Made by a program: the position numbers and the translations under genes. The notes beneath the pieces were generated by a model that saw nothing but the letters and a program-made list of their open reading frames with translations, was not told the DNA's origin and searched no databases. Shown here piece by piece: positions 13,456 through 16,580 of a DNA stretch of 64,000 nt (its first letter is position 1; each line of letters opens with the position of its first letter). This DNA is from Thermohalobacter berrensis (GTDB lineage Bacteria > Bacillota > Clostridia > Tissierellales > Thermohalobacteraceae), in assembly GCF_003609645.1 (NCBI RefSeq), contig NZ_MCIB01000001.1, forward strand, positions 124,001 through 188,000. Direction: 5' to 3'.

Positions 13456-13549
13456 TTCGACAAAAGACACAAAAAATACCAAAAAACTTGTAAAAAAATT
13501 TAACATGCGACAAACTTCGACAAACTTTATAGATTTTTTATATTATAAT
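13456..13549 (+). promoter_or_regulatory. Spo0A-box promoter upstream of the c-di-GMP riboswitch
   Basis: TTCGACAAA, the reverse complement of the 0A box TTTGTCGAA, occurs at 13456-13464 and 13516-13524. A one-mismatch copy TGCGACAAA is at 13506-13514, ten bases from the last, which makes CGACAAACTT a tandem direct repeat (13508-13527). The last box overlaps a -35-like TCGACA (13517-13522) that is 21 bases from a perfect TATAAT (13544-13549). A long spacer with a box over the -35 is the arrangement known from Spo0A-activated spoIIE and spoIIG promoters. The predicted start (about 13556) coincides with the beginning of the riboswitch RNA. Confidence 0.6.
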
Positions 13550-13555
13550 AGATGC

Positions 13556-13757
13556 GGTGTTTCCAGCTAAAAAATACCGATAAGGGCAAACTTACTGAAA
13601 GGTAAGGGCGCAAAGTCATGGGTCTAAGGGGATACTTATATCCCTATGATTGCCAGACTACCGAAGTAATATTTAAAATTTAAATATGTACTTTTATAGG
13701 TAGTCTTAAACAATCAAAATGACTCATTTTTTGCGCCTTAAAAAGGCGCTTTTTTTG
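13556..13757 (+). ncRNA. Cyclic di-GMP-I (GEMM-I) riboswitch with expression platform
   Basis: Bases 13578-13663 carry the conserved GEMM-I core: GATAAGGGCAAAC, a helix CTTAC/GTAAG closed by a GAAA tetraloop, GGGCGCAAAGTCATGGGTCTAAGG, and ATGATTGCCAGACTACCG. Upstream 13554-13580 can form a short stem (CGGTGTTT/AAATACCG). Downstream, AGACTACC (13655-13662) is complementary to GGTAGTCT (13699-13706), and an internal ATATTTAAA/TTTAAATAT repeat extends this alternative hairpin. GCGCCTT/AAGGCGC plus eight T (13733-13757) forms a terminator just before the HD-GYP gene. Whether ligand turns expression on or off cannot be decided by eye. Confidence 0.92.
13733..13757 (+). terminator. Riboswitch terminator
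   Basis: A perfect GC-rich 7-bp stem (GCGCCTT 13733-13739, AAGGCGC 13743-13749) and an eight-T tail. It lies 17 bases upstream of the HD-GYP start, so read-through decides expression of that gene. Confidence 0.88.
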
Positions 13758-13774: not shown

Positions 13775-14377
13775 ATGTATAACTTTAAAATAAAGAATAA
13801 TATTTCTTATGAAATAATGCTTTGTTTAGTTGCATCACTTGAAGCAAAAGATAGATATACTAGTGGTCATTCTAAAAGGGTAGCACAAATGACTTATGAA
13901 TTATGCAAATCAATTGGACTAAAAGAATATGAAATAGAACAAGTTTATATTGCAGCAAAACTACATGATATAGGTAAAATTAGTGTTCCAAATTCTATCT
14001 TAAATAAAAAAACCCCACTAGACAAAAAAGAATGGGAAAAGATTATGGAACATCCTGCAATTGGATATTCAATACTTAGCCAATCGAATAACTTGAAAAA
14101 TGTTGCCAAAATTGTTTTACACCATCATGAGTGGTGGGATGGAAAAGGATATCCCCATAAAATTAAGGGAGAAGACATACCTATTAGCTCACGTATTATA
14201 TCAATATGTGATTCTATTGATGCTATGCTATCTGAAAGACCTTACAGAAAAAGATTAACTTTTAAGGAATGTTTAAATGAAATTCATAATAATAAAGGGA
14301 CTCAATTTGACCCATATTTAGTAGATAAAGTAGAAATGTTATGGCCTAAATTTAAAAATTTGTTTAGAGAAAGTTAA
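13775..14377 (+). CDS. Stand-alone HD-GYP cyclic di-GMP phosphodiesterase
   Basis: A 200-residue protein made of only an HD-GYP domain. It has GHSKRVAQMTYELCKSIGL, the metal-binding HDIGK (about residues 69-73), HHHEWWDGKGYP (about 121-132, the HHExxDGxGYP signature) and IPISSRIISICDSIDAMLSERPYR. All residues of the dinuclear metal site appear present, so it should hydrolyse c-di-GMP to pGpG/GMP. There is no receiver or sensor domain, so control is likely transcriptional, through the c-di-GMP riboswitch and Spo0A-like boxes immediately upstream. A GAAGGGGGAA site precedes the ATG. The chemoreceptor gene follows 73 bases later without a terminator. Confidence 0.93.
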   Translation: MYNFKIKNNISYEIMLCLVASLEAKDRYTSGHSKRVAQMTYELCKSIGLKEYEIEQVYIAAKLHDIGKISVPNSILNKKTPLDKKEWEKIMEHPAIGYSILSQSNNLKNVAKIVLHHHEWWDGKGYPHKIKGEDIPISSRIISICDSIDAMLSERPYRKRLTFKECLNEIHNNKGTQFDPYLVDKVEMLWPKFKNLFRES

Positions 14378-14450: not shown

Positions 14451-16505
14451 ATGAAGAAAAAAAGTAAAAAGAAGATTAATAAGAAAAAGCATTCAAGGGG
14501 AAAATTGAGGAATAAACTTATTCCAATATTGATAATAGCAATAGTATTACCTTTAAGTTTGCTAGGTTATTTCTCATATCAGAGATCTTTTAATATACTA
14601 GAAGACAAATTAGTACTTACAAGTGGACAAACTGTGGCAGAAGTAAATGAAGCCTTAAATGAGTATCTTATTGGAGTTGAACATATTGTTGATATTTTAG
14701 CTGCTGACTCACGTTTTAAAGAGATAGATAGTACTACTTTAGAAGGTGAACAAGGAGGTAACCCTAAGGCTAATTTATCATTTATGGAAATTCTAAAGAA
14801 TACACAAGAAAGTAGCTCAGACATTACTAATGCATATTTTGGATCTACGGATGGTAAAATGCATCTATACCCAATTCAAGATTTAGATGATGACTACGAC
14901 CCTAGACTAAGACCTTGGTATAAGGGTGCTATTAAGAATAAAAATAGGGTAACTTGGTCAAAACCATACATAGACGCAGTTACAGGAAAAGTTGTTATTA
15001 CAGCGTCAAAACCAGTAGTAAAGTATGGAGAGGTAATTGGAGTAATTGGGATTGACATAGACCTTGATAGACTGTCTAAAAAGTTAGCTCAAATAGTTGT
15101 AGGCGAAGAGGGTTATGTTTTTATATCAGATGCTGTAGGGACAATAATTAGTCATCCTAGTAAAGAATTAGTTGGTACTAATGCTCCTACAGAACAGGAG
15201 TTTTGGCCAACAGTTAAATCTAATAGTAAAGGATTTGCCCGTTATACATACGAAGGGGAAGATAAGTTTTTAACTTTTGTTACAAATGAAAAGACCGGAT
15301 GGAAGATAGCTGCTACCTTAAAGGATAGAGAACTATTAAATGATACAGATGCTATTAAAAACTTTACTTTAGTTGGAGTAGCCATTGGTTTAGCAGTTGC
15401 TGTAATAATCTCCATACTAATTTCAGGTTATATCTCTAAACCTATAAATACTATAAAAAATGCTTTTACTAAGGCTACAACTGGAGATTTAACAACTACA
15501 GTTAATATTAAGTCTAATGATGAATTTGGTGAAATTGGCCAAAGCTTTAATGAAATGATTACAAATATAAAGGCTTTAATAAAAGATGTAATAAAATCTT
15601 CAAATACTGTATATGAATCATCAAATTCTCTAAATGAAATTACAGAACAAACTGTTACAGCTACAGAAGAAATAGCTAAAACAGTTGAAGAAGTAGCAAA
15701 AAGTACTGATGAACAAGCAAAGGATACTGAAAGAGGAGCTTCTAACACTCATGAATTAGCTAGTAAAATTGAAGATGTGGTTAATTTAACAGAAGAAATA
15801 AGTGATGCTTCTAATGAAACAAATAGGCTAAGTAATAAAGGGTTAGAGACAGTAAATCTTTTAACAGAAAAGAATAAAGAAAGTAATGAATCTACAAATG
15901 AGGTAAATGAGGCTATACAACAGGTAGATAAAAGTTCAGAAGAAATCGGAGTAATAACAGAGACGATAGCACAAATAGCTGAACAAACGAATTTACTTGC
16001 TTTAAATGCTGCAATAGAGGCAGCAAGGGCAGGAGAACATGGAAAAGGCTTTGCAGTAGTTGCAGAAGAAATAAGAAAATTAGCAGAAGAATCTTCAAAA
16101 GCAGCAGATGAAATAAAAAAACTGATTGAAGGTATTCAAAATAAATCCAAGTTAGCAGTTTCAGCTATGGATAAGTCAAAATCTATTATAGAAGCTCAAG
16201 ATGTTGCTGTAAAAGAAACTAAAGAGATATTCAGTCAAATAATTGAATCTATACAGAATTTAAGTCAAAAAGTTTCCCAAATAAAGATTTACAACGAAGA
16301 AATGTCAAATAAAAAGGATGAAATTGTTGATATAATTTCTAATATTTCATCAGTAGCACAGCAAACTTCTGCTGCTACTCAACAGGTATCAGCTTCAACT
16401 GAGGAACAATTAGCTTCAACTGAAAATATTCTATCTAATGTAGATAATCTAAAAACTCTTGCAGAAGAGTTACAAGGTGCAGTTAACAGGTTTAAAGTAG
16501 AGTAG
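14451..16505 (+). CDS. Methyl-accepting chemotaxis protein with dCache sensor
   Basis: A 684-residue transmembrane chemoreceptor. After a very basic N-terminus, TM1 is at about 21-43, a periplasmic dCache domain at about 45-300 and TM2 at about 306-328. A HAMP domain follows, then the coiled-coil signalling domain with the hairpin-tip sequence [40 protein letters not shown]. The sensor has [12 protein letters not shown] (about 149-160) followed by PYIDAVTG, resembling the Tyr-Arg-Trp-Tyr-Asp amino-acid-binding motif of dCache_1 domains, so amino acids are a reasonable ligand guess. It signals to CheA/CheW. It is 73 bases after the HD-GYP gene with no terminator between, possibly the same transcript. 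Confidence 0.95.
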
Positions 16506-16540
16506 GTTGAGAGATAAAATACAAAATATGGTTAAAACTA

Positions 16541-16580
16541 CAAAAAGTAGATGTGTTGATAATGCATCTACTTTTTGTAT
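16541..16580 (+). terminator. Terminator after the chemoreceptor gene
   Basis: A perfect 13-bp stem (CAAAAAGTAGATG 16541-16553, CATCTACTTTTTG 16565-16577). Confidence 0.88.

Follow-up and report, generated by a model that had tools for sequence, protein, structure and literature searches.

Can entry into sporulation and the level of c-di-GMP be read at one and the same promoter and leader? This question is raised by a locus on the + strand of the window (the whole 64-kb stretch of DNA that was analysed), where three Spo0A-like boxes precede a c-di-GMP riboswitch and a gene for an HD-GYP-type phosphodiesterase. A sequence-only reading of this DNA had proposed that Spo0A drives the riboswitch promoter. 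The answer matters for how Clostridia couple c-di-GMP signalling to the sporulation decision: if the proposal is true, one short DNA stretch takes both inputs and feeds back on one of them. What is shown here comes from computation and covers the promoter elements, with their presence, spacing and rarity, as well as the aptamer, terminator, alternative pairing and protein domains.

Three sites of the form TKCGACAAA were found, beginning at 13456, 13506 and 13516. The Spo0A core motif, given as TGTCGAA in PMC3485338, is contained in the reverse complement of box 1 (TTCGACAAA, 13456-13464). Box 3 has the same letters (TTCGACAAA, 13516-13524) and lies 10 bp past box 2 (TGCGACAAA, 13506-13514), which departs from the core at one position (TGCGACA, that is TGTCGCA vs TGTCGAA). 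Together, boxes 2 and 3 form a head-to-tail repeat of CGACAAACTT. The -35 position, overlapped by box 3, is occupied by TCGACA (13517-13522), and a TATAAT -10 element (13544-13549) follows 21 bp further on; transcription would be expected to start near 13556. The three sites, their tandem repeat and their coordinates had all been claimed before and were re-read correctly in the window letters, as was the 21-bp distance from TCGACA to a perfect TATAAT.

How readily could such boxes arise by chance? All copies of TKCGACAAA in the 64-kb window are the three at this locus, vs 0.16 expected, and none of 100 shuffles reached three. The tandem TKCGACAAANTKCGACAAA has a single perfect copy in the 2.76-Mb genome, at the window promoter. 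When up to three mismatches were allowed, two matches were found in the window, both here, vs 0.12 expected (1/100 shuffles reached two). At the same setting the whole genome gave 15 matches (two of them here) vs 8 for a backwards control, so loose tandem matches carry little meaning. These counts bear on the explanation that Spo0A is uninvolved and that the boxes arose by chance or by slippage that duplicated 10 bp (CGACAAACTT twice), or serve another regulator. Boxes 2 and 3 are indeed an exact 10-bp tandem repeat, and upstream windows often contain a single core (3/59), but neither accounts for three copies within 70 bp, for the exact spoIIG register of the gene-proximal copy or for a further instance in another family (G052, below). 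We regard this explanation as quite unlikely. A single core box was itself rejected as evidence, because its frequency upstream of riboswitches (8/112, vs 0.99 in shuffles with a largest value of 4) was no enrichment over those same 59 windows, taken from real sequence ahead of reading frames.

The genome encodes one Spo0A_C protein, and spoIIGA and spoIIE genes are also present. Promoters of these two genes in the own genome and in relatives served as a yardstick (31 genomes searched per gene, 21 promoters each). The pattern [TC]GACA-N21-TA..AT was readable in 20/21 spoIIGA and 19/21 spoIIE promoters, the own copies being TTCGACTTCAGCATATGACA-N21-TATAAT and TTGACA-N21-TAAAAT, respectively. 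As described in PMC3789822, the mapped promoter of C. difficile spoIIGA is a sigma-A one whose boxes are GTGACA and TATAAT. When the whole own genome was searched with CGAC-N6..11-GACA-N21-TAWAAT, two matches were returned, spoIIGA and the window locus, with 0 in the control. This is our strongest single result: within its own genome, the window promoter has its signature in common only with spoIIGA. The 21-bp spacer with TATAAT was dropped as stand-alone evidence, since YGACA-N21-TATAAT alone gave 8 genome matches vs 7 in the control. The promoter case therefore depends on the combination of box and spacer, which is rare (2 matches, control 0).

The resemblance to the spoIIE/spoIIG class claimed in the sequence-only reading thus held in part. 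Like the sigma-A promoters that Spo0A activates at spoIIGA and spoIIE, the window promoter has the core box over the -35, GACA, the 21-bp spacer and TAWAAT, in a genome with Spo0A and its pathway. It differs from them in that its boxes are 10 bp apart, whereas the second box lies 13 bp upstream in the 13/21 spoIIGA promoters showing such a box, in the single core mismatch of its upstream box, in its lack of conservation in the G001 and G002 orthologs, and in its output, a riboswitch leader and a c-di-GMP enzyme and not a sporulation gene. It may be regarded as a sub-type and was not filed as a plain member of the class. Two further sites in the own genome were observed. At L017 (1494-1520), a TTCGACA box is followed after about 37 bp by a gene resembling abrB by eye, abrB being a classic Spo0A-repressed gene in B. 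subtilis. At L013 (about 1495-1545), TTTCTACAAAATTTGACAGACC stands with a TATAAT-like sequence ahead of a long reading frame, a weaker candidate for the same kind of promoter.

The usual sigma-A spacer is 16-18 bp, and shorter readings of the window promoter also fit, namely TCGACA-N16-TATATT and TCGACA-N18-TATTAT, each with one mismatch per hexamer (10/12 consensus matches). The locus could accordingly be read as an ordinary sigma-A promoter working in growing cells and repressed, when sporulation begins, by Spo0A~P bound over the -35. The Spo0A boxes of B. subtilis are able to repress as well as to activate, as stated in PMC12090719, and plain sigma-A was the commonest promoter class that we scanned for before class I riboswitches (35/112 upstreams at up to one mismatch, shuffles 1.4). 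On the other hand, 16- or 18-bp spacers were also readable in 11/21 spoIIGA promoters, and a box over the -35 in exactly the 21-bp register is a feature of spoIIGA and spoIIE that the genome shows nowhere else apart from this locus. The promoter of the G002 ortholog, moreover, is sigma-H-like, i.e. of a type that is on at sporulation entry (below). We consider repression of an ordinary sigma-A promoter rather unlikely, although the letters cannot tell whether Spo0A activates or represses at the window promoter.

The leader carries a c-di-GMP-I aptamer (RF01051, 13575-13665) that covers the full model (1-87) and scores 82.5 bits, above the gathering cut-off of 35. An expression platform is also present, consisting of an intrinsic terminator (13733-13756; stem 13733-13749, followed by a T tract) and a competing antiterminator pairing. 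The 5' strand of the antiterminator is the aptamer segment GGCGCAAAG (13607-13615), which can pair with 13729-13737, a stretch that overlaps the 5' arm of the terminator. In the free fold of 13556-13757 (-66.6 kcal/mol) this pairing is formed and blocks the terminator; when the Rfam aptamer pairs were forced (-50.2 kcal/mol), the terminator formed. The duplex between aptamer and platform (-42.4, vs a shuffled mean of -23.8) was lower than in all 500 shuffles (minimum -36.3). The leader is therefore predicted to be an OFF switch for c-di-GMP, the ligand-free fold blocking the terminator and the aptamer-forced fold having it. The best fold is only 3.8 kcal/mol below one that bears the terminator without the aptamer, so the switch may be leaky.

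Two relatives appear to follow equal OFF logic with different letters: in the G001 and G002 leaders, the aptamer segment CAUGGGU is complementary to ACCCAUG at the terminators. Class I c-di-GMP riboswitches of C. difficile are described as uniformly OFF in PMC6200980. An ON switch under a Spo0A-activated promoter would give negative feedback on c-di-GMP, with no self-reinforcing loop. Such feedback is a natural role for a phosphodiesterase, and a second long pairing (13655-13662 with 13699-13706) does break the aptamer while leaving the terminator untouched. This alternative is nevertheless improbable in our judgement, given that the ligand-free fold sequesters the terminator arm and that the C. 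difficile switches act in the opposite sense.

The first gene after the terminator (13775-14377) encodes a 200-aa HD-GYP-type phosphodiesterase. Both blocks of the HD-GYP consensus, HDxGK and HHExxDGxGYP, are visible in it as HDIGK and HHEWWDGKGYP, and Pfam returned PF13487 (HD_5, 132.8 bits) and PF01966 (87.7 bits). It differs from HD-GYP phosphodiesterases in being a stand-alone single domain; no sensory domain was found in it. The next gene (14451-16505) encodes a chemoreceptor with dCache_1, HAMP and MCPsignal domains. Terminator scans of the + strand found no terminator between these two genes, which probably belong to the same operon. A terminator-like hairpin with an AT-rich stem lies 3' of the chemoreceptor gene (16539-16579), though one such site was expected from shuffles (1 found vs 1.0). 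The chemoreceptor, which sits behind the HD-GYP gene and is served by the single riboswitch, shares 57% identity over 660 residues with a chemoreceptor of G001 behind a riboswitch of its own.

To place the window promoter among those of other riboswitches, we scanned the DNA ahead of 112 class I riboswitches, taken from the own genome and its relatives, out of about 210 matches (the rest unlisted or unfetched, at least one of them, G021:C176, starting at a contig end). Two further upstreams (L319 and L320) were inspected by eye only, outside the 112. The window leader resembles the c-di-GMP-I (GEMM-I) riboswitches of Clostridia in its RF01051 aptamer, its terminator and its predicted OFF logic, and in the relatives inspected the downstream genes include ones for c-di-GMP turnover and motility. 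It differs from them in its Spo0A-type promoter: a box with GACA-N21-TAWAAT was found in only 2/112 upstreams, those of the window and G052, and in none of 300 sets of dinucleotide shuffles. GACA-N21-TATAAT with one mismatch was equally frequent on the opposite strand (6 vs 8).

Other promoter types were also seen in this survey. A sigma-D promoter was considered and set aside, there being one exact sigma-D-like site (G002:C13) in the 112 upstreams and none at the window locus. At L134 and L129 (G002:C13 and G001:C8), sigma-D-like promoters precede c-di-GMP-I riboswitches and a gene that resembles, by eye, one for a secreted surface protein; G002:C13 fits the sigma-D pattern and G001:C8 is sigma-D-like by eye only. 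At L289 and L319 (G033 and G044), a perfect TGTCGAA lies just 3' of a TATTATAAT-type -10 and just 5' of a class I riboswitch, where it would be well placed to repress. From the side of the enzyme, 20 of 80 HD-GYP homolog loci from named genomes (the top 12 and eight others) were scanned with Rfam and showed no RF01051 at gathering score; lacking the riboswitch, these 20 are uninformative on the window promoter. The remaining 60 were covered by a crude pattern scan only.

A stricter pattern, TTCGAC-N6..11-GACA-N21-TAWAAT, was searched for in 100 relatives and 391 genomes of the class (19 in common, 472 in total); the window promoter itself, with TGCGAC, fails this pattern. The relatives gave 26 matches vs 1 in the control. 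The class genomes gave 35, including the own spoIIGA, vs 22 in the control, a higher background than in the relatives. Most of the distinct matches (45/60) precede spoIIGA, as recognised by a profile built in this analysis. The other 15 comprise five from relatives (G052, G081, G020, G084 and G096) and ten from the class sample, among which L355 is cut by a contig end, L377 is inside a reading frame and L376 is spoIIE-like by eye. The 10-bp box spacing of the window recurs in the G052, G020, G084 and G096 matches. At L341 and L342 (G084 and G096, two genomes of one genus), a Spo0A-like promoter of this 10-bp type lies before a gene that by eye resembles one for a TAXI-type substrate-binding protein.

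All 15 loci were scanned with Rfam. The G052 match was found directly 5' of a c-di-GMP-I riboswitch, and the G081 match directly 5' of a c-di-GMP-II riboswitch (RF01786, 64.1 bits, gathering 53.5); the scan detected no riboswitch at the other 13. Riboswitch-linked matches thus made up 2/5 in the order-level sample and 0/10 in the class sample, and the association of promoter and riboswitch was seen only in the former. G052 has spoIIGA, and Spo0A is present in other members of the G052 and G081 families. The two loci are further instances of the promoter-riboswitch pairing, and together with the window they bring the total to three, each in a different family of the order (f1, f18 and f7). Judged by its set of families, this order belongs to Clostridia and may be Tissierellales. 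Two chance riboswitch neighbours among 15 promoters would be unlikely, because relatives have only about two class I riboswitches per genome (about 210 in 100 genomes), though the number is low and one of these very cases had prompted the idea. The G081 locus (L336, G081:C185, 1501-1650) shows a spoIIG-type promoter with 13-bp box spacing and the c-di-GMP-II riboswitch, and the gene that follows encodes a HisKA_3 histidine kinase domain.

In two of three other genomes of the family (G001 and G002), the riboswitch is likewise followed by an HD-GYP gene (64% identity), and in G003 the single riboswitch precedes a chemoreceptor instead; genome searches turned up no other genome of the window's genus. 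Conservation of the boxes in relatives had been named as a check on the proposal, and when we ran it the result was negative: the boxes are absent from both orthologous riboswitch-HD-GYP promoters, as they would be if Spo0A had no part in the window promoter. The two ortholog promoters read GAAGG(G/A)ATT-N11-GTAGAATAT. The spo0A promoters of the order read GAAGGR-N13-TGTCGAA in 20/21 loci used, and a mapped SigH promoter of the GAAGGR type is described for C. difficile spo0A in PMC7438776.

We scanned the 112 upstreams for sigma-H promoters in two ways. With the consensus (AGGA at -35, GAAT at -10), the G002 ortholog showed zero mismatches, as did one other of the 112 upstreams (2 in all, shuffles 0.03); at one mismatch the count was modestly above chance (9/112 vs 2.9 in shuffles, largest 7). 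With a matrix built from 20 spo0A promoter sites, whose training scores were 28.3-37.8 bits, G002 scored 12.8 bits (at least 12 bits was reached 0.00 times per shuffled set) and G001 only 3.6 bits. Five of the 112 upstreams reached 10 bits, vs 0 on the opposite strand and 0.10 per set in shuffles, and one of these five, G028:C17, is without the GAAT -10. The best riboswitch score, 15.1 bits, is far under the training sites and belongs to the riboswitch of the G001 chemoreceptor mentioned above. The window promoter had no sigma-H-like site at up to one mismatch and was absent from the 14 best matrix scores listed. The G002 ortholog carries a sigma-H-like promoter of the spo0A type; the window locus shows no such site.

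The HD-GYP unit therefore appears to stand under a sporulation-entry promoter in relatives too, of another type, with G002 a good and G001, taken alone, a weak match. The idea of expression at sporulation entry may thus be kept, with the mechanism changed in the orthologs to a sigma-H-like one. Promoter turnover would then have taken place, between a sigma-H-like form in relatives and the Spo0A type at the window, with riboswitch and gene retained. As to the original proposal of a Spo0A-driven promoter before the riboswitch, the spacer, the signature and the presence of Spo0A, spoIIGA and spoIIE in the same genome speak for it; the orthologs without boxes and the 10-bp box spacing speak against it. 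A perfect 0A core, TGTCGAA, was observed upstream in 21/22 spo0A loci (L003, L297-L316), and in 20/21 spo0A matrix loci it falls on the -10 of the sigma-H-like promoter, so genome scans for the 0A core will catch sigma-H promoters.

Taking the window locus as a whole, we consider it reasonably probable that Spo0A~P and low c-di-GMP are both needed to switch on the enzyme and the receptor. At sporulation entry, Spo0A~P would occupy boxes 2 and 3, box 1 serving as an upstream site, and would activate sigma-A RNA polymerase at this promoter of spoIIG/spoIIE type with its 21-bp spacer. To judge from the fold and the relatives, in the absence of ligand GGCGCAAAG would capture the terminator's 5' arm, letting transcription continue; with c-di-GMP bound, the aptamer would keep GGCGCAAAG, the terminator would form and transcription would stop near 13756. 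Phosphodiesterase and chemoreceptor would be produced only at high Spo0A~P and low c-di-GMP. The enzyme, made when c-di-GMP is low, would drive it lower still, and the loop would be self-reinforcing and would favour commitment to sporulation.

Among the genes repressed by Spo0A in B. subtilis is yuxH (pdeH), which encodes a c-di-GMP phosphodiesterase. The parts of the proposed arrangement are known, but for their pairing the sequence-only reading knew of no described example, and our search agrees: in the open-licence literature we found no report of a Spo0A-driven c-di-GMP riboswitch, of Spo0A acting at a riboswitch promoter or of a 0A box tied to a riboswitch. The closest precedent found is RCd5, a GEMM RNA of C. 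difficile, which according to PMC3649979 rises 199-fold as stationary phase begins and drops 7-fold when sigH is mutated, SigH control being judged indirect. The link of a c-di-GMP riboswitch to the transition phase is thus not wholly new, since RCd5 already shows one. RCd5 differs from the window locus in having a sigma-A promoter with a 17-bp spacer (TTGAAA, TATTAT) and in adjoining a transcriptional regulator gene (PMC3649979). Of the growth-phase RNAs in that paper, RCd6 alone is reported lower in a spo0A mutant, and RCd5 is not. On the physiological side, raised c-di-GMP in C. difficile cut the sigE transcript about 2-fold, i.e. lowered early sporulation gene expression, and riboswitches had no apparent effect on sporulation-related genes in conditions not favouring sporulation (PMC8653836).

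A wider reading is possible, though we hold it only tentatively and with some doubt: across the order, sporulation-entry promoters, either Spo0A/sigma-A with a 21-bp spacer or sigma H, may have been joined repeatedly to both classes of c-di-GMP riboswitch, giving units that need both inputs. The window unit would be one whose output, a c-di-GMP-degrading enzyme, locks it in one state. Sigma-H-like promoters were also observed before c-di-GMP-I riboswitches at L138 (G010:C39, 13.8 bits) and L143 (G026:C6, 10.6 bits), and the gene behind the latter riboswitch encodes a PAS-GGDEF protein.
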